NCBI RefSeq assembly: GCF_019008365.1 | Contig: NZ_JAHHUL010000021.1 | Location: forward strand, 1 to 64,000 | Direction of reading: 5' to 3' | Origin: Phosphitispora fastidiosa | GTDB taxonomy: Bacteria > Bacillota > Thermincolia > Thermincolales > UBA2595 | DNA length: 64,000 nt | Position numbers and translations under genes: made by a program | The notes under the pieces: model-generated | The model's input: only the letters and a program-made list of their open reading frames with translations | Told to the model about the DNA's origin: nothing | Databases searched by the model: none | In this document: piece by piece, positions 2,274-41,056 of the stretch | Layout of the letters: each line of letters opens with the position of its first letter | Numbering within the stretch: the first letter of the stretch is position 1

Positions 2274-5200
2274 TTAAGGAATATCTTCCTCATCAACAAT
2301 CAGTACAATATCTGCCACGCCATTTCGCTCGCCATCGGTGGCTTCAATGACAAATACATTGTCACCTTCATTGAGGTTTTTTATATCCTCAACATAAACA
2401 GGATCACTATCCGTCATATCGTAGACATAGCTTTCTGCATCCAGTTCAAACCAAGCCGCATCACCCACTTCGAATGCATTATACGATGTATCAACATCTG
2501 TAACTTCACCATATACATCGTAAGTAACAGTTGGATCCGTTGCGACACCCAGCACTATTTTTGCGCCGTCCATGGAATACTCGAAAAGTTGATTAGCAAC
2601 AGGGTTTCCGCTGCTGACTTCGTAAAGTTCAACAGTACCACGGATATCGGCAGTGACCCATATATCTCCGTCATAAAAATAACTATCAATAACCATTAGT
2701 TTTTCTGATTGAGGACTGCAACTTTTCAGAATTACATCAATCATCCTACTGCGCAAGGGATTATCGCTGAAAACGCACTGTACAATGTCACCCTCTGCCA
2801 GACCGTTAATATCTGCATATACCGGGTTATCACCGGTCATATCATAGACATAAGTCTCCTCATCAATTCCACGCAAGATATAGTCATTAAGTATAATAGA
2901 AGAATTAATGAAGTCAATGTCTGTTATTTCAGCCTCAATATAACCTGTTACAGGTTCTAACAAGCTAATTTTACTGTCAATCAAATCATACCTGTAAACT
3001 GTATCTGCCGCCGGATCTGCAACGGGAGATGTTCCATACACCTCATATGAGGAGACTTCGCCCCGAATATCCACAGAGACCCAGGTATCCCCATCATTAT
3101 AATAGGTGTCAATAACCATGACTTTTTCCGGTCCGGCACTGTAACTTCTCACAATTACATCAATTATCCCGGTGCGCCAGGGACTGTCGCTGAGAACATA
3201 TTGTATCCCGTCGCCTACTGCGAGTCTGCCGATATCTTTATAAACCGGATCATAACCGGTCATGTCATAAACATAAGTGTTCTCATCAATTCCATACCAG
3301 GAGCTGTCGTTTAATTCAACAGCAGAATTAAAGTAATCTATATCTGTTATTCTAGCATCTATATAACCTGTTACCGGTTCGATGAAGCTTATTTTGCCCC
3401 CAATCAGATTATATTTGTAGACTGCCTCTTCTGTCGGATTTCCGACAGGCGAATATGCATAAACTTCAAAATTGTAACCTTCACCCCGAATATCCACATC
3501 AACCCAGGTATGACCATCATAGATATAGGTGTCAATTACAATAGCTTTTTCTGTTTCATGCCTTATCTCCGACCTGTACCATTTGCCTTCCTGTTTCACA
3601 AAAATTATATGGATGCCTTCTACCTGCCCTGTAATGGGGAACCACAGGGTACTGCCTCCCTCGTCTTCGTCAGGCAGTATTTCGTAAATTGCGCCATCTG
3701 GACTAAACTGGTACATTGTTTCAAAATCAGACAGGTCAATTTCTCCAAGGATGTATTCAACATAGGTTATGCCATCTGATTCAGCCATATATCCTGTTGC
3801 CATTGCTTCTGCGTCTTTCGTGCCAATTCTTGTCAGACTGGCTTTATACACCTGGCTGTTCTTATCGGTGACAGTATAAACATACTCACCCGGCGCTTCC
3901 TGTATGTCAAGCCATAAACCAGGTTCAGCATCCGGAACCAGTTCTGTCGCTGCTCCTCCATCCTTCACTACCGTTACACCGGTAATATTTCCGGCTTCAA
4001 GGCTTATTTCAGTTCCCTCATAGGTTAGCCGGTATTCTTCATATACTGTTCCTTCATCTACTCTAATTTCCCCACTGGAAGAAAATGCTCCGTTCAAGAA
4101 CTCCGGGTCTGAGGGCGGCGGTGTTGAACCACCACCTCCACCACCTCCACCGCCGCCGCCGGCGGGAGGCGAGGTTCCGACATCTGTCTCCATAACCACA
4201 TCATCTGAATTCACATTCGCTGTTTCAACAACCCCGTCACCGGTAACTGATGCACCTGCATTAATCTCCAGTACTTTGACCACTGCATCTTCAGAAACTT
4301 CCAGTACGGAACCGCTGCCGGCTTCAGTGATGCAGAATTTTGCAACAGAACCACTTAACAGATTAATCCTGGCTCCGGGGGAGTTTATGTCCACATTGTC
4401 AAAATTGCCTATCAACTCCACAGCAGCCCCTTCAGGAATTTCTATGGCCAAATCCCCAAACCCGTCTCCTGCCAGGTCTGCCTCTTCCACTACAGCCCCA
4501 GAAGCAAGCCACAGTGAATTAACTACAGCATTATCTTTGGCTACTATCCTGACCCTGCCGCTTTTTTTATCAACAAATACACTATACAGCTCCGAATCCC
4601 CTATGATATACACACTATTTTCCCCGCCGCCGCAAATCAGGGTTCTCCCATAAACAGTAACATTATCCAAAACAACACTGCCACTGCATATTCCGGCAGT
4701 TAAATAAATATCCCCTTTAACAATCGTGTTATACAGTTCAACATTTGTACTTGTGATGGTAACATTCCCGTCTATGACGTCACAAGTAAATTTTCCTGCT
4801 TCATTGTAAAGACATCCAACAGCCCTGTTTAATAAAGTTATCGTTTCGGCCCGCGTTATACCCCGTCGGGGGTGAAAACTCTTATCCTCATACCCCTTCA
4901 TATACCCGTTTTCGACAGCTGCGGCAACGGCTCCCCTACTCCACGGTGATATATCAGTTTCATCGATAAATTCTTTAATAAGTTCTGACTCCCGGGAGTT
5001 GTCTAAAACCAATAGTTTACTAAGAACCATGGCAGCCTCCTCCCGGTTGATGTAGTTATTGGGCCGCATCGTACCATCCTCGTATCCGGTGATGTATCCT
5101 GCAGCCTTTGCCTTGCCAATTTCCGCAGCAAACCAATCGCTCGGAGAGACATCGGAATAGCTGAATTCTTCCTCAGTTATGAATCCCATTACCTTATTGA

Positions 5201-5414
5201 CAAGAGCAATAAATTCAGCTCGGGTAATATTTCGGTCCGGCCTAAAAGTATCGTCTGGATAGCCGGCAGTCAAATTTCGGTCTGTCCAATGGATAATTTG
5301 TTCTTCAGCCCAGTGTCCCTGAATGTCGGAAGGTGCTGCCAAAATGACATCGACAAACATGCAGGTTATCATAACTGCCAGAACAAGTCCAATAATAAGG
5401 GTTTTCCTTTTCAT
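2274..5414 (-). CDS. SLH-domain surface protein with Gly-rich linker and three C-terminal repeats
   Basis: The 1046-residue product starts with a signal peptide (about residues 1-27), then three SLH domains (about 28-205) carrying motifs such as ITRAEFIALV. SLH domains bind pyruvylated secondary cell wall polymer, so the protein should sit on the cell surface. Residues about 210-410 are a valine/threonine-rich stretch with beta-helix character. A run of eleven glycines flanked by prolines (about 415-430) is a flexible linker. The C-terminal third holds three ~142-residue repeats (near 620, 762 and 905), each containing an IDTY-YDG--WV-DIRG motif and a YVYDMT--DPVY motif. The start is supported by AGGAGG upstream. 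The ligand or partner is unknown. The gene is monocistronic on visible spacing. Confidence 0.85.
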   Translation of the reverse strand: MKRKTLIIGLVLAVMITCMFVDVILAAPSDIQGHWAEEQIIHWTDRNLTAGYPDDTFRPDRNITRAEFIALVNKVMGFITEEEFSYSDVSPSDWFAAEIGKAKAAGYITGYEDGTMRPNNYINREEAAMVLSKLLVLDNSRESELIKEFIDETDISPWSRGAVAAAVENGYMKGYEDKSFHPRRGITRAETITLLNRAVGCLYNEAGKFTCDVIDGNVTITSTNVELYNTIVKGDIYLTAGICSGSVVLDNVTVYGRTLICGGGENSVYIIGDSELYSVFVDKKSGRVRIVAKDNAVVNSLWLASGAVVEEADLAGDGFGDLAIEIPEGAAVELIGNFDNVDINSPGARINLLSGSVAKFCITEAGSGSVLEVSEDAVVKVLEINAGASVTGDGVVETANVNSDDVVMETDVGTSPPAGGGGGGGGGGGSTPPPSDPEFLNGAFSSSGEIRVDEGTVYEEYRLTYEGTEISLEAGNITGVTVVKDGGAATELVPDAEPGLWLDIQEAPGEYVYTVTDKNSQVYKASLTRIGTKDAEAMATGYMAESDGITYVEYILGEIDLSDFETMYQFSPDGAIYEILPDEDEGGSTLWFPITGQVEGIHIIFVKQEGKWYRSEIRHETEKAIVIDTYIYDGHTWVDVDIRGEGYNFEVYAYSPVGNPTEEAVYKYNLIGGKISFIEPVTGYIDARITDIDYFNSAVELNDSSWYGIDENTYVYDMTGYDPVYKDIGRLAVGDGIQYVLSDSPWRTGIIDVIVRSYSAGPEKVMVIDTYYNDGDTWVSVDIRGEVSSYEVYGTSPVADPAADTVYRYDLIDSKISLLEPVTGYIEAEITDIDFINSSIILNDYILRGIDEETYVYDMTGDNPVYADINGLAEGDIVQCVFSDNPLRSRMIDVILKSCSPQSEKLMVIDSYFYDGDIWVTADIRGTVELYEVSSGNPVANQLFEYSMDGAKIVLGVATDPTVTYDVYGEVTDVDTSYNAFEVGDAAWFELDAESYVYDMTDSDPVYVEDIKNLNEGDNVFVIEATDGERNGVADIVLIVDEEDIP

Positions 5415-5650: not shown

Positions 5651-7018
5651 CTAGCGGACTTTTATTACCGGGAAGCGTTCCGGAAGACTGATCCCGGCCT
5701 TTAATGCCAGGGCAGCAGCCTTTTCCCCGGCCTGCCGGAGTACCTCTTTCTCATTTACAGTCATTATTCTTCTGTTTCGCATCAGCCACCTGCCGTCACA
5801 CATACTGGACTCTACATTTGCCGACTGCACAGCATACACAAGGTTTGCGACAGGATCATGAACAGGCAGGCTTCCTGCCGCTGCCGGGTTGATTATAATA
5901 AGGTCAGCCTTTTTACCTGGTTCCAGTGACCCTATTTCATCCTCCCACTGCAGGCACTTGGCTCCATTTACAGTCGCCATCTCCAAAATGCGTTCTGCCG
6001 GCAGAGTTTCCGGGTTCAGGGTCCTTCCCTTATGTATTAGTGAAGCAAGGTACATATCACTGATGATATCCATCCGGTTATTACAGGGCGCTCCATCAGT
6101 GCCTATGGAGATACAAATGCCTTTATCCAGCATTTCCGGTATCCGGGCAAAACCCAGTACCTTCATGCCGGCCGCCGGGCAATGTGATACCTTGACACCG
6201 TGGTGTGCAAAGAGTTCAATTTCCTCCTCATCAAGCCATACACAGTGAACCGCCAATAGTCTTCCGCCCAATGCGCCCAGATTTGCGAGGTGCTTAACCG
6301 TAGTGTTACCCCTGTTTTTCCGGGCATAATTGACCTCCTCCCTTACTTCGGCAACATGCATGTGAATTCCCACACCATATTTGACTGCAAGGTCATAGGT
6401 CATTTGTATCAACCTGTCAGAAACATTGAATATTGTCCTCAGGGCAAACCATACCCTGATACGGCCGCCGGCGCTGCCATGCCATTTACTGATCAGGTCT
6501 TCCTGAACTGCCAGGGTTTCCTCAGCTGTCTCCTGCCACTTCTCAGGAAGTCCCTGACCACAGTCCATTGTTGACCTGGCTAAGATACCCCTAATACCGG
6601 TCTCCTCAACAGCTCTGGCCATTCCCTCCACTTCCTGCCCCCCGGCCTCAGCAAAGGTCGTCACTCCGGAGCGTATCATTTCAATACAACAGGCAAGTGA
6701 TGATATATATGAGTCTTCCCATTCCATACTGCTCTCATATGGCCAAATTCGTTGGTGCAGCCATGTCAGCAGGTCTACATCATCTCCCAGCCCCCGCGCC
6801 AGCTGTTGTGATAAGTGCACGTGGGAGTTAATAAAACCGGGCATGACCAGCTTCCCCCGGGCATTTACCCTCTCCGCATCCTCCCGAACCAGCCCGGAAG
6901 GTATGCGGCCCAATGCCGTTATGCAGTCCCCTTCTATAAGGATATCCCCACCCTCAAAGACCTGCCTGTCATGATTCATAGATATTATATACCCGTTTTC
7001 AATAACTATTTGATTCAT
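5651..7018 (-). CDS. Metal-dependent amidohydrolase (MtaD/SsnA/AtzB-like)
   Basis: The 455 aa product belongs to the cytosolic amidohydrolase superfamily that deaminates or dechlorinates nitrogen heterocycles; 5'-methylthioadenosine/S-adenosylhomocysteine deaminase is the closest familiar type. The metal site is visible: HVH near residue 66 (NSHVHLSQ), a second histidine in HMHVAE, a third in AVHCVW, and the aspartate in GTDGAP. The C-terminal GKKADLIII segment closes the small beta domain. The start codon overlaps the stop of the upstream gene as TAATG, so it is translationally coupled to the CNB-AAA-polyferredoxin fusion. The substrate cannot be read from sequence; MtaD, guanine deaminase-like or aminohydrolase activity are all possible. 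Confidence 0.85.
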   Translation of the reverse strand: MNQIVIENGYIISMNHDRQVFEGGDILIEGDCITALGRIPSGLVREDAERVNARGKLVMPGFINSHVHLSQQLARGLGDDVDLLTWLHQRIWPYESSMEWEDSYISSLACCIEMIRSGVTTFAEAGGQEVEGMARAVEETGIRGILARSTMDCGQGLPEKWQETAEETLAVQEDLISKWHGSAGGRIRVWFALRTIFNVSDRLIQMTYDLAVKYGVGIHMHVAEVREEVNYARKNRGNTTVKHLANLGALGGRLLAVHCVWLDEEEIELFAHHGVKVSHCPAAGMKVLGFARIPEMLDKGICISIGTDGAPCNNRMDIISDMYLASLIHKGRTLNPETLPAERILEMATVNGAKCLQWEDEIGSLEPGKKADLIIINPAAAGSLPVHDPVANLVYAVQSANVESSMCDGRWLMRNRRIMTVNEKEVLRQAGEKAAALALKAGISLPERFPVIKVR

Positions 7019-9480
7019 TAATTACCTCCGGATGTTCGCCTGTTCTTCAATTTTCCGGTCCTCAGCAAGACCATTATAATAGTAAACCCTGTTAATAACA
7101 CTCCCATGAAGGCTGCACCAGCCTGGCCGACCCGTAAAAGCGGAACATAAAAAACACTGTCTGCCCCCATGCGGGGAATATATCCCAGGCCAAACAGGAC
7201 AGACTGGCTCCCGGGCAGGAAGTGCAGCTGATATGCTATAAACCCGGCAATTACTACAGGTATAAAGGCAAAAACAAGCTTAATCCTGCGCGGGGCCGCC
7301 TTTTCCCTAAATGGTCTGGCAATAATCCATGTAATCAGACCGCTGAGAACAGCGCTGCCCCAATATGATACACTAAACCAGAAGCGCCACCGATCTTCGG
7401 GCCACACACCGTGAAGCGGCCCGAAATATAAAATCGGAATCAGAATCCCCAGGGCAACACCAATAAATAACGCAAACCCCTGGTTAACCCTTACAAGGTG
7501 CCAGACCTCCCTTGCCGGGACACGCAAATTGACTTTAACGGCATCATTGGGGCAGTTGCGTACACAGCGAAAGCACAGCTTACATGCCTGGTTGCTGTCA
7601 AGGAAGGCTGAGTGCTGAGACATGGGACAGCCTTCAACCTCCTCTGTACCGCGATAGCATTCATGAGTCGTACACTTATTCAGACAGATCTCCGAGTCAG
7701 CCCTGACTTCAACCATTCCGCTGATGGAGGCCATTCCTATCAGCCCACCCAGGGGACAAAGGTGACGGCACCAGGTGTGGCGGGTAAATATTACCCCGGT
7801 AACAGCGGCAGCCGATGTAATGGTAAAAAGCCACAGCCCGCCATACAGCCTGTTATGCCGCATATCAGTCATTTCTTCAATCCAGAATACCAATACAAAC
7901 AAAAAGGTTGTAATCAGGTAATCATACTTTTTCAGAACATTGGGAACCGGCCTGTTTAAATGGTAAACCTTCTGGACCATTTCCATTGTGAAAGAAACCG
8001 GGCAGGCCCCGCACCATACCCTGCCAATCCAGAAGGCGCTAATTACTATGAAAGGCCACCAAAGTCCCCATACAAGCGTAAGGCCGAAGTCACCTGATTT
8101 TTCTCCGGGAATAAATAAGAGAGCAATAGTAGTAAGTATCATGATAGCAAATGTTGCCTTCTGCAGTCTGAGTGGAAAAAGCCCTTCTTTTACCCAGGAG
8201 TGGAAACGCTTCCAAATCAGAAGGTTAAAACTACGCCCTATTCTCTCGCCTGTGGGGCCGAAAAAAAGGTGTTCTACCCCTATCACATCACCGTCTGCAA
8301 TCAAAAAAGCGCGTTCCACGATCTGAATAAGTTCCGCTATATTCGTCTGGCGGAAATTATGATTTAAAAGCATTTTGGTTGCTTCCCGGTCAATCACGGG
8401 AGCAGGTCTGCCATGCTGGTCCGCCAGTTTTTTCAGCAGCCTGGCCGAAATGACCGGAATATCTCTTTTGCGTTCCCTTAGTGATAAAAATCTGTTTTCT
8501 CCGGTAAAGAACTTTTTCAGCTCGGGCAAGAGTTTTACAGAAAGGTCTTCAGGCTCTGCCTGCAGTGTTGCTACTATGCGGCATGAGGCACACCGGGAAC
8601 CCAAAACCTCAGCCAGTTTCAACTGGGCTCTGGATGACAGCATATTTATGTCCTTAATGAAAAGAGTCCCGCCTTCAGCCACCTTGAGAATACAGTATGT
8701 CTTGGCTCCCTCGGGATTTCCGGGGATCTGCCGGGTTTCAAACAGTATATCTCCCCACTGCTGATCCATATGCCGCCCATCCACTATTATAAAAGGGGCA
8801 TTTTCACCATACTGTTTCTTGTGCAGCAGCCAGGCAACCAGAGTTTTACCCGTTCCCCGTTCTCCCAGGAATAGTACATTCTCTTCCGTTTCTGACAGTT
8901 TAGCGAGTTTTTCCTCTATTTCCCGAAGCGAATAGGGACTCCCCCAATATTCATAGGACTTGTACTTTAGCTGAAACTGCAGCCCGGACCGCAGGAAGTT
9001 TCTGTACCCTTCTTCCCACAATTCTCTGTTAAGCAGGTTGAGGCGCTGCGAAAGACTGGTAACGAACCCGGCATAAAGCTTGGGCCAGCGTACCAGCATG
9101 TAGGCAAAGCGTTCTGCGCTAAGGGCTAGAACCCTGCAGTCTTCAGTACATTGTACACTTGCCGAAGCCAGTTTTCCCGTGAAAAGGTCCACTTCTCCAA
9201 AGGCATCACCCGGCCCAAAAGAAGACAATCTAATCATCTCCCGGCCTTCCCGGTTAATAAACGCATCTGCTCTCCCCTCTACCAGAACGTAAAACCCGTG
9301 TGCCTCCAAATCCTGTTGGAATATATAAGTCCCCTTCATGTGTTCTTCCCACCGGAAATCTCCCGCAAGTTCATACAATTCCTGCCTGTTCAGGCCTGAA
9401 AGTAGTTCAACTTTTGCCAGTATCTTCACTTTCCGTTCGGTCCTTCTGTCCGATTTTCCCTCTTCACGTTTATCCTGCAA
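7018..9480 (-). CDS. Fusion: cyclic-nucleotide-binding domain, sigma54-type AAA domain, NapH/NosR-like membrane polyferredoxin
   Basis: The protein has about 820 residues. From the N-terminus: a Crp-type cyclic-nucleotide-binding fold (about 15-150, with FGPGDAFGEVDLFTG); a AAA domain resembling sigma54 activators (about 180-405), with Walker A GERGTGKT near 206, a GGTLFIKDI strand in place of the usual GGTLFLDEI, and LRERKRDIP; then several membrane helices with WCGACPVSF and WCRHLCPLGG, and a ferredoxin segment with two cysteine clusters, the second CKLCFRCVRNCP; then more helices. The GAFTGA loop for sigma54 contact and any helix-turn-helix are absent, so it is unlikely to be an ordinary activator. 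I place the start at TTG 9480, because GGAGGTG lies 6 bases before it; an ATG at 9495 would put that site inside the gene. A membrane redox sensor or regulated electron carrier is inference. Confidence 0.85.
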   Translation of the reverse strand: MQDKREEGKSDRRTERKVKILAKVELLSGLNRQELYELAGDFRWEEHMKGTYIFQQDLEAHGFYVLVEGRADAFINREGREMIRLSSFGPGDAFGEVDLFTGKLASASVQCTEDCRVLALSAERFAYMLVRWPKLYAGFVTSLSQRLNLLNRELWEEGYRNFLRSGLQFQLKYKSYEYWGSPYSLREIEEKLAKLSETEENVLFLGERGTGKTLVAWLLHKKQYGENAPFIIVDGRHMDQQWGDILFETRQIPGNPEGAKTYCILKVAEGGTLFIKDINMLSSRAQLKLAEVLGSRCASCRIVATLQAEPEDLSVKLLPELKKFFTGENRFLSLRERKRDIPVISARLLKKLADQHGRPAPVIDREATKMLLNHNFRQTNIAELIQIVERAFLIADGDVIGVEHLFFGPTGERIGRSFNLLIWKRFHSWVKEGLFPLRLQKATFAIMILTTIALLFIPGEKSGDFGLTLVWGLWWPFIVISAFWIGRVWCGACPVSFTMEMVQKVYHLNRPVPNVLKKYDYLITTFLFVLVFWIEEMTDMRHNRLYGGLWLFTITSAAAVTGVIFTRHTWCRHLCPLGGLIGMASISGMVEVRADSEICLNKCTTHECYRGTEEVEGCPMSQHSAFLDSNQACKLCFRCVRNCPNDAVKVNLRVPAREVWHLVRVNQGFALFIGVALGILIPILYFGPLHGVWPEDRWRFWFSVSYWGSAVLSGLITWIIARPFREKAAPRRIKLVFAFIPVVIAGFIAYQLHFLPGSQSVLFGLGYIPRMGADSVFYVPLLRVGQAGAAFMGVLLTGFTIIMVLLRTGKLKNRRTSGGN

Positions 9481-9547
9481 TGCACTCACCTCCATATAGC
9501 AGTTCGCTGTCTGTCAACACGCATCAGTCCCACCTTAAAACAGGAAC

Positions 9548-9662: not shown

Positions 9663-10874
9663 TCAACTATCCTTTTCAAATGCTCTCAGTGCGGCCAGGT
9701 AAACTTTTTTCAGCGGCACCCCGCATTCCAGCGCCCTCTTCCGGCAATCTTCGTACTCGGGAGCCTCATTCACTGTATTCCCATGCAGCACAGCCATCTT
9801 TATCCCTATTTCACCATATTCGGTATCGACTACACGGCTTTCCCGCTTAAGGCAGTACCTGCTCCACCTGCTGAACCTGATTCCTATTGTTGAGGTCTCC
9901 AGAAACAGAGTTTCCGCAATTCCTTCTTTATCTTCCTCATTACAAAGCACTTTCATCAGAACCGCAGGCCGGTTCTTTTTCATATGTATCGGGACGAGAA
10001 ATGCATCCAGAGCGCCCTTCTCAAACAATCGTTCAAACACATGATCAAAAAACTCGGGATTCATATCATCAATGTTTGCTTCAAGGACTGCAACCGTACC
10101 CGCAGTACTGTCAGACAAGCTGTCCTGCAGCAAATCAATACTGCCGCCGGCTTCCTTCCCGATGATGGCCCGGACTACATTAGGAACCCCATAATCCCTT
10201 GTTCCGGCGCCATATCCCACCCCTTCCACCTCAAGAGCCGGCATCGGGCCGCATTGACCCGCTAAGGCAGACAGAAGTGCTGCCCCGGTTGGGGTGACCG
10301 TCTCTCCCTCGTGTTCAGAACCATATGTGACCATTCCTTTAAGGAGTTCCACCGTTGCCGGAGCCGGAACAGGAATCAGCCCATGGCTGCACCTGACAAA
10401 ACCCTTGCCCATAGGCAGCGGGGATGCTACAATCCGGTCAACCCGAAGCAGGTTTAATGCAATCACCGCCCCAACTATATCAACAATAGAGTCCACTGCC
10501 CCCACTTCGTGAAAATGGACCTTGTCCGGTGTCGTCCCATGAACTTTCGCCTCGGCGGCAGCAAGCAGGCGAAAAACCGCTTTGCTCCTGTCCTTGACTT
10601 CGGCTGTCAGCCGGCTGGTGTCAATTATCTGCTCAATATCATGCAGGTGTCGTTCAGAGGTCTCTTCGGTTTCTCGGAGGACGTCGAATTTGATCGCACT
10701 TATCCCGGATTTGATTATTCTCCTGATTTTTATATCATAACCTTCCAGAGGCATTTTGTCCACTTCGTTTTTAAACACTTCCGCATCCAGTCCCAGGTCC
10801 AGCAAAGCTCCGACTATCATATCACCACTGGCCCCGGCAAAACAGTCAAAATATAATGTTTTACAGTCCGTCAT
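9663..10874 (-). CDS. larC: LarC, nickel-pincer cofactor biosynthesis protein (nickel insertion)
   Basis: LarC is the CTP-dependent enzyme that inserts nickel into the pyridinium dithiocarboxylate precursor of the nickel-pincer nucleotide used by lactate racemase and related LarA-family enzymes. The DUF111 hallmark YFDCFAGASGDM is at the N-terminus, and a histidine-containing HFHEVGAVDS motif follows. The ORF is continuous, whereas in Lactobacillus plantarum LarC is made by a programmed frameshift. I place the start at ATG 10874, where GGGAGGAG precedes by 7 bases, rather than at 10895. It overlaps the end of cca by 14 bases, implying coupling. larA, larB and larE are not in the window. Confidence 0.9.
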   Translation of the reverse strand: MTDCKTLYFDCFAGASGDMIVGALLDLGLDAEVFKNEVDKMPLEGYDIKIRRIIKSGISAIKFDVLRETEETSERHLHDIEQIIDTSRLTAEVKDRSKAVFRLLAAAEAKVHGTTPDKVHFHEVGAVDSIVDIVGAVIALNLLRVDRIVASPLPMGKGFVRCSHGLIPVPAPATVELLKGMVTYGSEHEGETVTPTGAALLSALAGQCGPMPALEVEGVGYGAGTRDYGVPNVVRAIIGKEAGGSIDLLQDSLSDSTAGTVAVLEANIDDMNPEFFDHVFERLFEKGALDAFLVPIHMKKNRPAVLMKVLCNEEDKEGIAETLFLETSTIGIRFSRWSRYCLKRESRVVDTEYGEIGIKMAVLHGNTVNEAPEYEDCRKRALECGVPLKKVYLAALRAFEKDS

Positions 10875-12159
10875 ATTTCTTCTCCTCCCCGGCAATAGTG
10901 ACTAACGTCTCCCGGCTGTTGACTTCGGGGTCTTCCCAAACCTTTGCCAGGAGTTTTTTTAATATCCGGCCCACTTCAGGTCCTTCCTCTATCCCCAGCG
11001 AAACCAGGTCCCTTCCGCTGACTGCCAGGTCTTTAACCCCAAGGGGCTCATTCCGGTTTAAAACCTTGTTTATTTCTTTAACCAGGTCCAGCAGCAGCCT
11101 GAAATCATACGGTCCTGCCGAACCAAGGATATCAGCCTCCTGGAGTCTGACCAACCTGTCCAGGTTTTCGGTTCCAACCCTGTTTATGAGCTTTTTGACT
11201 CCTCCCTTACGCAAAAATGCGAACCGGCTCATATGATCAGTCACCAGGGCAGTTACAGAGGCAGCAGTCCTCCTGTCAAACCGGATTCTGGACATAATCT
11301 CAGCCGTCATATCACCACCCACAATATGGTGAGAGTAAAAGTGGCCTTTACCATTACCGTCAAGGGTAAATGTCCTGGGCTTCCCTATATCGTGCAGCAG
11401 GGCTGCCAGCCGTAGAACCGGATCATCAGTGGTATTGTCAAGCACAGCCAGGGAATGTTCAAAAACATCTTTATCATGATGGGAATTATGCTGTGCAAAT
11501 CCAAAACAATCCTGCAGTTCCGGAAGAAAGTAACAGAGCAGACCCGTTATCTGCAGGCTCCTCATTCCCCTGGAGGGGTTGCGGCAGGTCAGGAGTTTCA
11601 CCAGTTCATCCCTGATGCGTTCAACTGCGGTGTTCTCCAGCAGACCCGCGTTTTCCGGGATAGCTGCAAAGGTTTTCTGTTCGATGTCAAACCCCAGCTG
11701 GCAGCTTAGCCTGACCGCACGCAGCATCCTTATGGCATCTTCTCTGAACCTTGCCTGCGGGCTGCCAACCGCCCTGATCAGCCGCCTGTTTAAATCCTCC
11801 AAACCATTCACATAATCCATGACTCTTTCCCCGTCAAAGAGGAGTCCGTTAATGGTAAAATCCCGTGAATTTACATCTTCCCAGGGGCCAAAGCCCTTTC
11901 TGAAGGTAGTGACCTCAAAGGCCTTTTCACCAAGCAAAACGGTTACTGTCCCATATTTGATTCCACTGTCATACACCTTCGAAAACAGTTCCTTCACCTG
12001 ACCAGGGCGGGCAGAAGTGCAGATATCGAAGTCCGCCGGTTCTCTTCCCAGGACCATATCCCGGACACACCCGCCCACCAGGTAGCCCTGATAACCACTG
12101 CTGTGCAGTGTTTTTAATATTGTCATTGCCTCTGAAGGTATAAATTTGGGGACTGCCAA
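10861..12159 (-). CDS. cca: CCA tRNA nucleotidyltransferase / poly(A) polymerase family with HD domain
   Basis: The 432 aa class II nucleotidyltransferase adds or repairs the CCA end of tRNAs. The N-terminal head shows GYLVGGCVRD and the metal-binding pair in DFDICT (about residues 25-50), then RDFTINGL and a RAVR motif in the neck region. A C-terminal HD-type phosphohydrolase-like segment (LLHDIGKP, about 255) is present, as in many Clostridia. The start is TTG 12159 with AGGAG nine bases before it. It follows the efflux adaptor gene by 55 bases on the same strand and overlaps larC at its 3' end. Whether it is a full CCA enzyme or an A-adding enzyme cannot be told by eye. Confidence 0.9.
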   Translation of the reverse strand: MAVPKFIPSEAMTILKTLHSSGYQGYLVGGCVRDMVLGREPADFDICTSARPGQVKELFSKVYDSGIKYGTVTVLLGEKAFEVTTFRKGFGPWEDVNSRDFTINGLLFDGERVMDYVNGLEDLNRRLIRAVGSPQARFREDAIRMLRAVRLSCQLGFDIEQKTFAAIPENAGLLENTAVERIRDELVKLLTCRNPSRGMRSLQITGLLCYFLPELQDCFGFAQHNSHHDKDVFEHSLAVLDNTTDDPVLRLAALLHDIGKPRTFTLDGNGKGHFYSHHIVGGDMTAEIMSRIRFDRRTAASVTALVTDHMSRFAFLRKGGVKKLINRVGTENLDRLVRLQEADILGSAGPYDFRLLLDLVKEINKVLNRNEPLGVKDLAVSGRDLVSLGIEEGPEVGRILKKLLAKVWEDPEVNSRETLVTIAGEEKKYDGL

Positions 12160-34579: not shown

Positions 34580-37500
34580 TTAAATAAGTTCAGCCTTTTT
34601 CAGTACATTCCTTACTATTACGGCTGTTTCAGCCCTGGTTATTTTATCTTTAGGTGTGAGTTTCCCATCATACCCTCCTATTATGCCTATGCGCACACAG
34701 GCTGCAGATGACTCTTTGGCCCATTCGGCTATCTGGCCGGCATCAGTAAACTTCACTAAAGCCTCACTTACTTCTTCTGCATTTAAATCCGTATCAAGTT
34801 TGGCTATTGGCATAGCCTTAGCTACCATAGCCATTGCTTCTTCCCTGGTTATGTTTTTATCCGGTTTAAAACTGCCGTCAGTATAGCCGCTTACAATACC
34901 GTATTCATAAGCTAAACTTACTTTTCCATAATACCAGCTATCTTCTTTAATATCACTAAAGGTTATTTCTTTCGCCGGTTCCCTCAATCCAAGGGCATTT
35001 ACCACAATAGCGGCAAATTCTGCCCGGGTAATATCTTTGCCCGGTTTAAAAGTGCCATCCTCATAACCACTGATTACCAGTCTGGAACCCATATCATTAA
35101 CGGCCTCTTTAGACCAATGGTTATCTACATCAGCAAATCTTCTGGGGTTCCAAATGGTTGTATAAATACTGTTTGTTAAGCTGTTAATCCTGGCATAATA
35201 CTTCCCATTGATTTTTATTACTGTCGTAGGCACATGGGAGAAAGTCCCGTCAGGGTTCACTACTACACCGGTGGTTATTTTATCAGGATCTACACCTTCA
35301 GGTATCGCAAACATCCGTTCCACATAATTATTAAACTTAGATACCTGAATTGTTTTATCCCCACCGGTACACTCTATTTCTAATTCAACAGGCTTGACTA
35401 CCAACTGGTAATTACCTTTCACTGCGATATCTTCAACAACCCTGACGATTTCTTCTTCAGGTTCAGCAATTTTTACTTTTACCTTTATGTCTTTAAGCTC
35501 TACCTGCTCTCCTATTTGGGCAGAAATTTCGTTAATGTTTATCTGGGCGGCAGGTATTGTATAGATAACTCTCTCTGTTTTTATCTCCAGGACAGCCTCT
35601 TTATCCTCCATTTTCCTGACGATCTTTCCTGTAAGCTCACCTACCACAACATCAGAACCGTCATTTACCGGGATAATTATTTTTACCTTAGCCCCGGCCT
35701 GGTTAAGTTTTTCTTCTATCTTATCTTCATCAACGGTAACGGTGGTTACTGTTCGGTCTCCTTCATTAGTTGTTTCAGCATCCCCTACATCATCTATACT
35801 GTCCTCTTCTGCGGGATCACTATCGTTGTTATCATTACTGCTGCTTCTGCTGGGGGGACTGGCCCTGGTAATTGTTATTTCATATATTTTAGTGGTTACT
35901 CCATCCTGAGCGTATACGACTACTGCTACTGAATTAGAACCTGCATCTAAACCGATAACTTCAGAAGGAGCGCCGCTATTTGTGGCTGCACCGTTGACTT
36001 TTATTGTGGCTGTTTCATCATAGACTGCAGCTGTTACGGTAGTCTGGTATACACTGTTGGCCACACTGGCTGTGTAGCTTGTTGTATCACCGGAAAATGC
36101 CGGAGTAAGGATGCCGCTGCTTATGGAAAGGCTCGACAGGTCTGCGTTACTTGAGGGTGCTGTTATAAAGTTCCATGTTACTGCATCTGATATGCCTGCA
36201 AAGTTGTTGCCTGCCATATCCTCAAAGGCTGTTGCATCTACCTGTAAATAATAAGCAGTATCACTTATCAGTGTTGAATCAGGATTTACAGTTATTGCAT
36301 CTGTTCCTCCGCCTGATACTTTTGCACCTGTTACATCTATTGCTTCTATTACACTGTCATCTGACGATTTTTTTATAGTTATATTCCCTGCTCCCACAAC
36401 TACATTTTCATCAAAAGTAATCACTAAGTTATTATTCACTCCTACACCTACGGCATTATCTGCAGGGGTTAGAGTATTTACTGTTGGCGGTGTCTGATCA
36501 TTCAATGCCTTGACACCTGTTGTTTCCCCTGCTCCTGTTGCATTTCCTGCTTCATCATATACTGAGGCACCGTCTGCCGGGGTTATCTCTATTGTTTCAT
36601 TTCCGTCAGGTGTTCCTGTTATGTTTAGAAATAATCTTACTGTTGTCTCCCCTCCTGTAAGGGCTGATGCTGTGCCTTCATCTGCATTGTCATTTTGCTT
36701 CACGGAACTTATTGCTGCACCTGTTGCCGTTCCTCCGTTTTGCGTAAATGTAAGACTTAATTTATCTGCTGTTAAGGCTGCAGTGCCATCACCTGTTCCA
36801 TATATTCCTTCACTGAATACCACATCCATGTATGAGTTGTCCGCTGCCAGTGTCCCTGATGATATCATTGCCGGGGCAGAATCCCATGCAGCAGCTAATA
36901 GACCTGCTGCATCCGTGGCCAGGGCATTACCCGCTAAGTCCTGCACCGTCCCATTGCCTCCTGCGGTATACTTTACCGTGACTCCTTCTTTTGCTGATAT
37001 ACCCATGTCGGCAACGGTCAGCACCACATGAGCCGCATCAACCCCCTGGGCTATACCACTTACTGCATATGTTGTTAACGGGTCTCCTGTCTCTTCTACC
37101 GTAAAGCCCCCGTCATTGGCCTTGGCAATGTCAGTGCTGTCTTTGCTCAATGTCACTGTTATCTGTGTATCACTGTCTCTTACTACACTTACCAGCGTTG
37201 GCGGTGTCTTATCATTCAATGCCTTGACACCTGTTGTTTCCCCTGCTCCTGTTGCATTACCTGCTTCATCATATACTGAGGCACCATCTGCCGGGGTTAT
37301 CTCTATTGTTTCATTTCCGTCAGGTGTTCCTGTTATGCTTAGAAATATTCTTACTGTTGTCTCCCCTCCTGTAAGGGCTGATGCTGTGCCTTCATCTGCA
37401 TTGTCATTTTGCTTCACGGAACTTATTGCTGCACCAGTTGCCGTTCCTCCGTTTTGAGTAAATGTAAGGCTTAATTTATCTGCTGTTAAGGCTGCAGTGC

Positions 37501-40500
37501 CATCACCTGCTCCATATATTCCTTCGCTGAATACTACATCTATGTAAGAGTTATCCGCTGCCAGTGTCCCTGATGATATCATTGCCGGGGCAGAATCCCA
37601 TCCTGCCGCTGAGACACCTGCTGCATCAGTGGCCAGGGCATTACCCGCTAAGTCCTGTACTGTTCCATTGCCTCCTGCGGTGTATTTTACTGTTATACCT
37701 TCCTTTGCTGATATACCCATGTCGGCAACAGTCAGCACCACATGAGCCGCATCAACCCCCTGGGCTATGGAAGCTACAGCATAGGTCGTACCCGCATCCC
37801 CGGTTTCTTCTACCGTAAAGCCTCCGTCATTGGCCTTGGCAATGTCAGTGCTGTTTTCACTCAGGGTTACTGTTATCTGTGTATCACTGTCCCTTACTGC
37901 ACTTACCAGCGTTGGCGGTGTCTTATCATTCAATGCCTTTACACCTGTTGTTTCCCCTGCTCCTGTTGCATTTCCTGCTTCATCATATACTGAGGCACCG
38001 TCTGTCGGGGTTATCTCTATTGTTTCATTTCCGTCAGGTGTTCCTGTTATGTTTAGAAATAATCTTACTGTTGTCTCCCCTCCTGTAAGGGCTGATGCTG
38101 TGCCTTCATCTGCATTGTCATTTTGCTTCACGGAACTTATTGCTGCACCTGTTGCCGTTCCTCCGTTTTGCGTAAATGTAAGACTTAATTTATCTGCTGT
38201 TAAGGCTGCAGTGCCATCACCTGTTCCATATATTCCTTCACTGAATACCACATCCATGTATGAGTTGTCCGCTGCCAGTGTCCCTGATGATATCATTGCC
38301 GGGGCAGAATCCCATGCAGCAGCTAATAGACCTGCTGCATCCGTGGCCAGGGCATTACCCGCTAAGTCCTGCACCGTCCCATTGCCTCCTGCGGTATACT
38401 TTACCGTGACTCCTTCTTTTGCTGATATACCCATGTCGGCAACGGTCAGCACCACATGACCTGCATCCGTACCCTGGGCTATACCACTTACTGCATATGT
38501 CGTTAACGGGTCTCCTGTCTCTTCTACCGTAAAGCCCCCGTCATTGGCCTTGGCAATGTCAGTGCTGTCTTCACTCAGGGCCACTGTTACCTGTGTATCA
38601 CTGTCTCTTACTACACTCACTAAAACAGGTGCTGTATTATCTATTGAAAATGTCAAAGTATCACTTCCGGCATATGCATTGCCGGCCAAATCCGTACCTG
38701 CTGCTGTTACTGTTGCAGCTGCATTTCCTGCAGGAACTGTCCAGTCATATGTCCAGACAGTGCTGTCCCCGCTGTCTGTCATAGCCGCTCCTGCTACTCC
38801 GCCATTGGTAATAGTTATTGTGGGAGTATTTGTTATGGCTTCACTGAAGGTCGCGGTTATGGTTACTGTTTCATTTTGTTTAACTATATCGTCAGCATCA
38901 TTGTCCGACAATGTTACCGTTGGAGCTGTATTATCTATTGTGAATGTCAAAGTGTCGCTTCCGGCATATCCATTGCCGGCCAAATCCGCTCCTGCTACTG
39001 TTACAATTGCAGTTGCATTCCCCGCAGGTACTGTCCAGTCATATGTCCAGGCAGTGCTGTCCCCGCTGTCTGTCATAGCTGCTCCTGCCACCCCGCCATT
39101 GGTAACAGTTATTGTAGGAGTATTTGTCATGGCTTCACTGAAGGTCGCGGTTATGGTTACTGTGTCGTTTTGTTTGACTATGTTGTCAGCTTCGTCATCA
39201 GTCAAGACAACTGTTGGTACTGTTCTGTCCACAGCAAAACTGTAAGTTGTTGAAGGGTTACTCTGATTTCCGGCGCTATCTCTTGCAACAGCTAATATAT
39301 TATATGTACCGGTTGTAAACGGGTCTGAGGAGAGGTCAACACTCCAATTGCCAAATTCATCTGTTTGGCCTAATCCCCACGGGTCAAAGGTATCGGCATT
39401 AAATATTTCTATATAGCTGTTGGCCTCTGCGGTCCCGGAGAATACCAAAGTATTATCATTCGTTATTTTATCACTTGCAGATGCACCGGTATCATCAGCC
39501 AAGGAAGTTATTACCGGAGGCTCAGGCGCTGTTAGGTCAATTATAACTGTGAATCCCGGTGATAATGCTCCTGTATTACCCGCAGCATCAGTTGCCGCTG
39601 CGGTGAACACATAGGTCCCTTCTGGTAATGCAGTCCCTGTATAATCAAAGCTCCAGCTTCCACTTCCGTCCGCTGTTGTTGTACCTATAGATACCTCATC
39701 TTTAAAGACCTCTACTATACTGCCTGCCTCTGCCGTACCTTCTATTTTAAGGGTTTGGTCTTTAGTAATCCCATCGAACCCGCTTGCTCCCAGATCCTGG
39801 ATTATAGATGGTACTGCAAGGCCATTTGGAGCTGTATTGTCTATTGTGAATGTTAAAGTGTCGCTTCCAACATATGCATTGCCGGCCAAATCCGTCCCTG
39901 CTACAGTTACTGTTGCAGCTGCATTTCCTGCAGGAACTGTCCAGTCATATGTCCAGGCAGCGCTGTCTCCGCTGTCTGTCATGGCGGCCCCTGTAACTCC
40001 GCCATTGGTAATGGTTATTGTGGGAGCATTTGTCATGGCTTCGCTAAAGGTCGCTGTTATGGTTACTGTATCGTTTTGTTTGACTATGTTATCAGCTTCG
40101 TTATCAGTCAGAACAACTGTTGGTGGTGTTACGTCGGCTGTTGTAAAGTTCCATGTCGTCATATCTGCTATTCCGGCGAAGCTGTTACCTGTTTCATCAT
40201 CAAATGCTGTTGCATCTATCTGTACATAATACCCCGTTTCTCCTGCCAGAGCAGTATTCGGATTTATGGTTATCGTATCTGTTCCTCCACCTGTTACATT
40301 TCCACCCGTTACATCTATTGCTTCTATTGTACTGTCATCTGATGACCTTTTTATTGTTATATTCCCTGTTCCCACCACAACATTTTCATCAAATGTTATT
40401 ACCATGTTGTCATTTACCCCTATATCTACTGCATTATCTGCCGGGCTTAAGCTGCTTATGGAAGGTGGTGTGGTATCTGTAGCATAAGTAACTACAAGCT

Positions 40501-41056
40501 GTGGTGGATAGTTAAAATCTTCCCTGCTGTCAAAAGCAAAATCGTTATCTGTTGCATCTTCATAGCCGGTTAAAACAAATGTAGCAACACCATCTCCTGC
40601 TGCCTGTGTAAGCACAAAGTCTGTTACATCAAATTCTTTCCACTGACCTTGAGTTATGTTACTATCATTAGTTATTATAGAATAGTCTTGAGAAGGGATT
40701 GAAGTATCGGGTTCACTCCAGGCATCACTGTTTGAGCCATACAAATTAACAACAGGGCTTCCGTTTTTTTGTGAAATATATATTTTTAATGCCGCACCTG
40801 TAATCGTCCCGCTAACTGAATTTAAGTCAAATTGTAATGCAGCTCTTTCATAGTTAACCCCATCAGAAATATAACACCCAACCATAAGAACAGAATGATC
40901 TGGCACAATAAAATTATCATTATTATTATAGTTACCCCAGTTATCCAAGTAATAATCTTTAGTTGATGGAATTTCGGCTGCTTTTACTTTCTCAATATAT
41001 ATGAAACTCATACAAATTAAAAAAACCAGAATTACTCCTAAAAGTTTTTTAATCAT
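34580..41056 (-). CDS. Giant SLH surface protein with Ig-like and tandem repeat domains
   Basis: The 2158 aa protein has a signal peptide (cleaved near VKAAEI), a DNRLRE-like beta-sandwich (about 28-190), a Big_5-type Ig domain (about 195-305), several TVTLTDNEADNIVKQNDTV-type Ig-like repeats (about 308-810), three near-identical 238-residue units (about 813-1526), another Big_5-type domain (about 1530-1630), a cadherin-like beta-sandwich (about 1636-1735, LSSLSISSGILTPAFSG), a mixed linker, and three SLH domains at the C-terminus (about 1974-2150) that should anchor it to the cell wall. It is built as a long stalk, as in adhesins and S-layer-associated proteins. The ligand is unknown. The promoter and terminator are both visible, so it is a single-gene unit. 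Confidence 0.9.
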   Translation of the reverse strand: MIKKLLGVILVFLICMSFIYIEKVKAAEIPSTKDYYLDNWGNYNNNDNFIVPDHSVLMVGCYISDGVNYERAALQFDLNSVSGTITGAALKIYISQKNGSPVVNLYGSNSDAWSEPDTSIPSQDYSIITNDSNITQGQWKEFDVTDFVLTQAAGDGVATFVLTGYEDATDNDFAFDSREDFNYPPQLVVTYATDTTPPSISSLSPADNAVDIGVNDNMVITFDENVVVGTGNITIKRSSDDSTIEAIDVTGGNVTGGGTDTITINPNTALAGETGYYVQIDATAFDDETGNSFAGIADMTTWNFTTADVTPPTVVLTDNEADNIVKQNDTVTITATFSEAMTNAPTITITNGGVTGAAMTDSGDSAAWTYDWTVPAGNAAATVTVAGTDLAGNAYVGSDTLTFTIDNTAPNGLAVPSIIQDLGASGFDGITKDQTLKIEGTAEAGSIVEVFKDEVSIGTTTADGSGSWSFDYTGTALPEGTYVFTAAATDAAGNTGALSPGFTVIIDLTAPEPPVITSLADDTGASASDKITNDNTLVFSGTAEANSYIEIFNADTFDPWGLGQTDEFGNWSVDLSSDPFTTGTYNILAVARDSAGNQSNPSTTYSFAVDRTVPTVVLTDDEADNIVKQNDTVTITATFSEAMTNTPTITVTNGGVAGAAMTDSGDSTAWTYDWTVPAGNATAIVTVAGADLAGNGYAGSDTLTFTIDNTAPTVTLSDNDADDIVKQNETVTITATFSEAITNTPTITITNGGVAGAAMTDSGDSTVWTYDWTVPAGNAAATVTAAGTDLAGNAYAGSDTLTFSIDNTAPVLVSVVRDSDTQVTVALSEDSTDIAKANDGGFTVEETGDPLTTYAVSGIAQGTDAGHVVLTVADMGISAKEGVTVKYTAGGNGTVQDLAGNALATDAAGLLAAAWDSAPAMISSGTLAADNSYMDVVFSEGIYGTGDGTAALTADKLSLTFTQNGGTATGAAISSVKQNDNADEGTASALTGGETTVRLFLNITGTPDGNETIEITPTDGASVYDEAGNATGAGETTGVKALNDKTPPTLVSAVRDSDTQITVTLSENSTDIAKANDGGFTVEETGDAGTTYAVASIAQGVDAAHVVLTVADMGISAKEGITVKYTAGGNGTVQDLAGNALATDAAGVSAAGWDSAPAMISSGTLAADNSYIDVVFSEGIYGAGDGTAALTADKLSLTFTQNGGTATGAAISSVKQNDNADEGTASALTGGETTVRIFLSITGTPDGNETIEITPADGASVYDEAGNATGAGETTGVKALNDKTPPTLVSVVRDSDTQITVTLSKDSTDIAKANDGGFTVEETGDPLTTYAVSGIAQGVDAAHVVLTVADMGISAKEGVTVKYTAGGNGTVQDLAGNALATDAAGLLAAAWDSAPAMISSGTLAADNSYMDVVFSEGIYGTGDGTAALTADKLSLTFTQNGGTATGAAISSVKQNDNADEGTASALTGGETTVRLFLNITGTPDGNETIEITPADGASVYDEAGNATGAGETTGVKALNDQTPPTVNTLTPADNAVGVGVNNNLVITFDENVVVGAGNITIKKSSDDSVIEAIDVTGAKVSGGGTDAITVNPDSTLISDTAYYLQVDATAFEDMAGNNFAGISDAVTWNFITAPSSNADLSSLSISSGILTPAFSGDTTSYTASVANSVYQTTVTAAVYDETATIKVNGAATNSGAPSEVIGLDAGSNSVAVVVYAQDGVTTKIYEITITRASPPSRSSSNDNNDSDPAEEDSIDDVGDAETTNEGDRTVTTVTVDEDKIEEKLNQAGAKVKIIIPVNDGSDVVVGELTGKIVRKMEDKEAVLEIKTERVIYTIPAAQININEISAQIGEQVELKDIKVKVKIAEPEEEIVRVVEDIAVKGNYQLVVKPVELEIECTGGDKTIQVSKFNNYVERMFAIPEGVDPDKITTGVVVNPDGTFSHVPTTVIKINGKYYARINSLTNSIYTTIWNPRRFADVDNHWSKEAVNDMGSRLVISGYEDGTFKPGKDITRAEFAAIVVNALGLREPAKEITFSDIKEDSWYYGKVSLAYEYGIVSGYTDGSFKPDKNITREEAMAMVAKAMPIAKLDTDLNAEEVSEALVKFTDAGQIAEWAKESSAACVRIGIIGGYDGKLTPKDKITRAETAVIVRNVLKKAELI
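36477..38618 (-). repeat. Three 714-bp tandem repeats inside the large SLH gene
   Basis: The anchor GTTGGCGGTGTCT recurs at 36483, 37197 and 37911, exactly 714 bases apart. Stretches of 100 bases and more are identical between copies, with a few scattered substitutions. Each unit encodes 238 residues, so copy-number change would keep the frame. Confidence 0.9.

Follow-up and report, generated by a model that had tools for sequence, protein, structure and literature searches.

What is the function of a protein in which a cyclic nucleotide-binding (CNB) domain, a AAA+ module of sigma54-activator type and a membrane polyferredoxin are joined in a single chain? The question is raised by a gene in the window (i.e. 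the whole stretch of 64,000 nucleotides of Phosphitispora fastidiosa DNA that was analysed). The open reading frame runs without interruption from 7018 to 9495 on the minus strand, and encodes 825 amino acids counted from the first ATG (9495). The true start is probably the TTG at 9480 (codon 6 of the frame) because a strong Shine-Dalgarno sequence, GGAGGTG, lies 6 nt upstream of it; the product would then have 820 amino acids. Residue numbers are counted from the ATG at 9495. The features of the locus are:

7018 to 9495, minus strand: the fusion gene (open reading frame and 48 full-length homologues).
9094 to 9342, minus strand: CNB/CRP-type beta-barrel, residues 52-134, phosphate-binding Arg missing (Pfam and alignment).
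8974 to 9081, minus strand: long helix, residues 139-174, where CRP has its dimerisation helix; the AAA domain, and not a helix-turn-helix (HTH), comes after it (AlphaFold model).
8266 to 8943, minus strand: degenerate AAA+ domain and lid of the sigma54 enhancer-binding protein (bEBP) type, residues 185-410 (Pfam, alignment and Foldseek).
8842 to 8865, minus strand: Walker A GERGTGKT, residues 211-218; GERGTGRQ in most homologues (alignment).
8647 to 8673, minus strand: altered Walker B GGTLFIKDI, residues 275-283; no family member has Asp at the Asp position (alignment).
7024 to 8181, minus strand: polytopic membrane domain, residues 439-824, with about eight TM helices (AlphaFold models, hydropathy and positive-inside rule).
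7999 to 8013, minus strand: CX2CP motif, C495/C498 (48/48).
7753 to 7770, minus strand: CX3CP motif, C576/C580 (48/48).
7627 to 7686, minus strand: atypical Cys quartet C604, C608, C613 and C623, CX3CX4CYxG...GCP (48/48).
7549 to 7584, minus strand: ferredoxin-type CX2CX2CX3CP, C638/C641/C644/C648 (48/48).
5651 to 7018, minus strand: TRZ/ATZ-type amidohydrolase, its start overlapping the fusion stop (TAATG); not a conserved partner.

The order of domains is thus CNB, bEBP-type AAA domain with its lid, and eight-TM polyferredoxin. Pfam profiles match above their curated cut-offs for cNMP_binding (residues 52-134, 62 bits, which places this domain in the CNB fold of CRP and FNR), Sigma54_activ_2 (residues 190-311), Sigma54_activat, AAA_lid_14 (residues 340-410) and Fer4_5; the homology of the AAA domain to sigma54 enhancer-binding proteins scores 49-56 bits, again above cut-off. 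The architecture of CNB, Sigma54_activat and Fer4_5 in one protein, first read from the sequence in an earlier note, is confirmed by this search both in the window and in a set of 48 full-length homologues, all from Bacillota and counting the window protein itself. Every member of the set matches the same Pfam domains, the Fer4_5 module included.

That note had also raised the possibility of an assembly join. This is excluded by the 48 full-length homologues together with a paralogue in the same genome that is 49% identical over nearly its full length. The fusion is a real conserved bacterial membrane Fe-S protein, and not a chance reading frame or a mis-join. A small number of homologues are broken or split, or have internal deletions (L024/L052, L093 and L102), as might be found for a decaying sigma54 activator, a chance frame or a join; with 48 intact homologues, the paralogue and the low dN/dS described below, such an origin is extremely improbable. 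The paralogue (G000:C7:315-2693; L002, L040) has GRQ in Walker A, and a gene for a methyl-accepting chemotaxis protein adjoins it on the opposite strand.

The closest named relatives are T. ferriacetica metagenome-assembled genomes (96% and 87% identity), and a contig scan with the window protein as query returned close relatives only. Among 399 evenly sampled genomes of the phylum the fusion is present in 13 (E < 1e-100), in one of them as a broken copy; of the 46 genomes in the G386 family, 28 have a match at E < 1e-80. The same fusion occurs on cyanobacterial plasmids of Pseudanabaena galeata and Aulosira laxa, with 25-27% identity and 86-88% query coverage. No published description of the architecture was found in the openly searchable literature (subscription journals being outside its scope), nor did a characterised member turn up there, in keeping with the earlier impression that none is known. 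Within that literature the architecture appears to be undescribed.

The four groups of cysteines in the membrane half, predicted earlier as a NapH/NosR-like polyferredoxin with at least four clusters, comprise 12 residues that are invariant in all 48 homologues and present in both cyanobacterial members. About eight TM helices can be read from AlphaFold models and hydropathy, and the predicted topology is N-in/C-in; from the positive-inside pattern the Fe-S loop would therefore face the cytoplasm, where the head also lies. The membrane half modelled alone has a pLDDT of 83 and a pTM of 0.84; for the whole chain these are 77 and 0.56, so that the relative placement of the domains is not reliable. 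Neither profile search nor fold search found a solved structure similar to the membrane half (best fold E 0.57).

The nearest described proteins to the membrane half are NapH, NosR and RdhC (PceC). The membrane modules of NapH and NosR transfer electrons, and the same role has been proposed for RdhC, which was once taken for a regulator (PMC5928378). The fusion shares with them a Fer4_5 membrane module, paired Cys-Pro motifs and further Cys clusters after the fourth TM helix. However, they have two CX3CP motifs where the fusion has CX2CP first and CX3CP second, and the fusion differs from them in its atypical third Cys group, four extra TM helices and the CNB and AAA head. It scores 42 bits with the NCBIfam napH model, against a cut-off of 213, and whereas NosR and RdhC have an FMN-binding domain there is no FMN_bind match in the fusion at E up to 1. 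Closer are polyferredoxins of 440-490 amino acids that stand alone in many Bacillota, 30-38% identical to the membrane half; these belong to the same subfamily, with the same 12-Cys pattern, but lack the CNB/AAA head, as does a homologue of this subfamily on a Deinococcus plasmid. The stand-alone genes (L056-L070) are mostly preceded by one for a small Met/His-rich exported protein, and the two might form a copper or iron redox system.

The head retains the AAA+ fold and lid of bEBP sigma54 activators such as NtrC1, FlrC and PspF, and in a Foldseek search the AAA domain resembles bEBP structures including NtrC1, with E values down to 6e-11. Unlike those proteins it is fused to the membrane, and several of their elements are missing from it. 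GAFTGA is deleted in all 48 homologues together with the second sigma54-contact loop (L2), but four of the five control bEBPs aligned from this genome have an intact GAFTGA. In every member the Arg-finger motif FRxDLYYRL has been replaced; the sensor II Arg survives in just one of the 48, and the Walker B Asp in none (Arg in 28, Lys in 10, Asn in 5, Gln in 4 and Gly in 1). Of GAFTGA, L2, the Walker B Asp, the Arg fingers and the sensor II Arg, most are retained by the genuine bEBPs that this genome also encodes. Pfam finds no HTH DNA-binding domain anywhere in the fusion protein, and TM1 directly follows the AAA lid in the Pfam layout and the model. The altered Walker B sequence and the loss of GAFTGA and HTH are thus all seen as the earlier note had claimed.

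These losses bear upon a role in transcription. Sigma54 is absent from one complete Bacillota host genome (G303), though found in 21 of the 22 Bacillota hosts tested; it is absent from cyanobacteria according to a published survey (PMC3162934), from which its absence in P. galeata and A. laxa is taken. With the contact loops deleted, no DNA-binding domain and sigma54-free hosts, activation of sigma54 is excluded in practice. The earlier opinion that this is not transcription control is therefore supported, and the fusion, usually annotated as a transcription regulator, can hardly be one to judge from its motifs. Of the two cyanobacterial members, one bears the annotation 'nitrogen assimilation regulatory protein' and the other 'cyclic nucleotide-binding domain-containing protein', names that point to regulator functions which the proteins probably do not have. 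TyrR, HupR and VpsR are DNA-binding regulators, whereas the fusion has no DNA-binding domain. It shares with these three a GAFTGA-deficient AAA domain of the same clan; they are non-sigma54 homologues of bEBPs in which GAFTGA is defective or missing (PMC3162934).

Could the head still bind a nucleotide? In the alignment the Walker A glycine frame GExG[TS]G is kept in 48/48, while at the Lys position of Walker A 12 members have Lys and 36 have Arg. The window protein keeps GKT, and the Thr following the Lys is retained in three of the 48, i.e. in the window clade only. In the tree the window clade (GKT or GKL) is nested inside a crown group dominated by GRQ, and basal Bacillota and cyanobacterial members have GK; the branch order is weak, and a reversion to Lys in the window clade is possible. 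The CNB domain resembles CRP and FNR in its fold and in the long helix that follows, but differs in having no HTH and no phosphate-binding Arg, which is missing at positions 109-113 in 48/48 aligned sequences. Canonical cyclic-nucleotide binding by this domain is unlikely. The best reading of the AAA+ head is as a pseudo-enzyme that would no longer hydrolyse ATP, possibly still binding it without hydrolysis in the window clade (GERGTGKT).

The earlier note had proposed that a nucleotide or ATP state directly controls the electron path, i.e. that cNMP or ATP at the head opens or closes it. The universal glycine frame, with GKT intact in the window clade and also in cyanobacteria, is what such gating would draw on, but it is set against the loss of the CNB Arg and Walker B Asp throughout, the Lys to Arg change in most members, the missing Arg fingers and the near-absence of the sensor II Arg. 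As stated the proposal is unsupported, and we consider gating by nucleotide decidedly improbable.

The head is nevertheless well preserved. Between the window protein and its Thermincola orthologues dN/dS is 0.04-0.05 for the CNB and AAA domains and 0.08-0.13 for the membrane domain; the paralogue clade gives 0.08-0.13, except that one CNB comparison, with very few changes, gives 0.34. These ratios indicate that all domains of the fusion are under purifying selection. A head without catalytic residues but with low dN/dS would therefore be maintained for something other than hydrolysis.

Taken together, we favour a membrane Fe-S electron carrier that is linked to quinone and faces the cytoplasm, and whose non-catalytic head serves regulation or docking, an interpretation to which we give about an even chance of being correct. 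The membrane half would transfer electrons in the manner of NapH, NosR and RdhC, in contact with quinone and through up to three cytoplasm-facing [4Fe-4S] clusters. The head consists of a CRP-like barrel, the long helix that stands where CRP has its dimerisation helix, and an AAA+ fold derived from bEBPs that would have given up hydrolysis and sigma54 contact. Next to the clusters, it may act as a platform for oligomerisation, for docking or for allosteric control. Electron flow linking the quinone pool with an acceptor in the cytoplasm could then be set by a ligand bound to the head, by the state of its thiols, or by a soluble redox partner that docks. This is consistent with the invariant cysteines, the stand-alone relatives, the cytoplasmic Fe-S loop, the precedent of the known carriers, the loss of hydrolysis and sigma54-contact features under constraint, and the sigma54-free hosts. 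Against it, neither an operon partner nor an acceptor is conserved in Bacillota, the searches found no solved structure like the membrane half, no quinone site was recognized, and the first motif is CX2CP instead of CX3CP.

Alternatively, the CNB head could be the sign of a pure sensor. In this main rival the Fe-S/quinone part would sense redox state and the head would signal to a soluble partner, e.g. by mixed assembly with true bEBPs or through another regulator, with no bulk flow of electrons. The head is indeed made of two regulator-derived domains, conserved enzyme partner genes are usually lacking, and almost all the tested Bacillota hosts possess sigma54. Head thiols C116, C120 and C305 are conserved in most crown-group members as well; they are not kept in most basal members, so that a thiol switch, if any, would be a clade-specific feature. 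But sigma54 is missing in G303 and cyanobacteria, the sigma54-contact loops are deleted, the Arg fingers that mixed AAA rings require are no longer present, and an enzyme gene, cysK, adjoins the cyanobacterial fusion. We regard a redox sensor as a possibility lying somewhat on the unlikely side.

The neighbourhood of the fusion gene was examined for a partner. The earlier note had asked whether the amidohydrolase always follows the fusion. It does not; the gene is found in the window genome, and a 95%-identical relative has only 47 bp of its 3′ end left after the fusion and has therefore probably lost it. No other fetched fusion locus has a match, and the amidohydrolase was rejected as a functional partner. 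No neighbour of the Bacillota fusions is conserved beyond close relatives, the neighbours varying by genome; no consistent sigma54, CRP, FNR or Fur site lies upstream, and no nap genes were identified among the neighbours scanned.

The cyanobacteria offer a hint. In both Pseudanabaena and Aulosira the next gene, 5-17 bases downstream of the fusion, is cysK, with genes for DsrE, rhodanese, thioredoxin, Rieske (petC) and psbA nearby, a context that hints at sulphur and redox stress. The protein might thus supply electrons for sulphur assimilation (the cyanobacterial cysK operon) or for metal handling, a special case that overlaps the electron carrier favoured above. Metal handling would suit the stand-alone relatives, often placed behind the Met/His-rich exported protein and in one case behind what we take, from reading its sequence, to be an FTR1-like permease. 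There are, however, only two cyanobacterial loci, mutually related, and no consistent sulphur or metal genes beside the Bacillota fusions; this assignment is unlikely. The Aulosira plasmid cluster (L110 4374-18295) encodes MerR, ArsP permease, thioredoxin, Rieske, the fusion, cysK, Rrf2, nitronate monooxygenase, DsbA and psbA, and looks like a sulphur or redox stress island.

A broader proposal is of a protein class, so far undescribed, common to cyanobacteria and anaerobic Bacillota: the AAA+ module of a bEBP would have turned into an allosteric switch without hydrolysis, and this switch would directly gate an Fe-S electron path across the membrane. We think this rather unlikely. In this family a AAA+ module from a transcription activator would have been taken up into a membrane redox protein, a route rarely followed by a regulatory ATPase. 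Redox control matters in the host groups of the family, i.e. metal-reducing Thermincola, what are probably Peptococcaceae/Desulfitobacteriaceae-like anaerobes, and photosynthetic cyanobacteria.

Other genes of the window may be noted. A gene for a LarC-type nickel insertion protein (9663-10895, minus strand) lies directly upstream of the fusion, an order retained in relative L041. Two adjacent minus-strand frames in different phase (450-1127 and 1151-1828), with 5 and 6 CxxCH motifs, both align near or within the 3′ part of one 1467-amino-acid open reading frame in a T. ferriacetica relative (L055 4170-8573), so the window copy of this cytochrome looks truncated or frameshifted. Large exported proteins are encoded on the minus strand at 2274-5414 and 34580-41056. 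The former reads as SLH-type, and its gene, without match at that place in two relatives, sits between the fusion locus and the cytochrome; the latter has SLH, Ig-like, CBM96 and cadherin-like domains.
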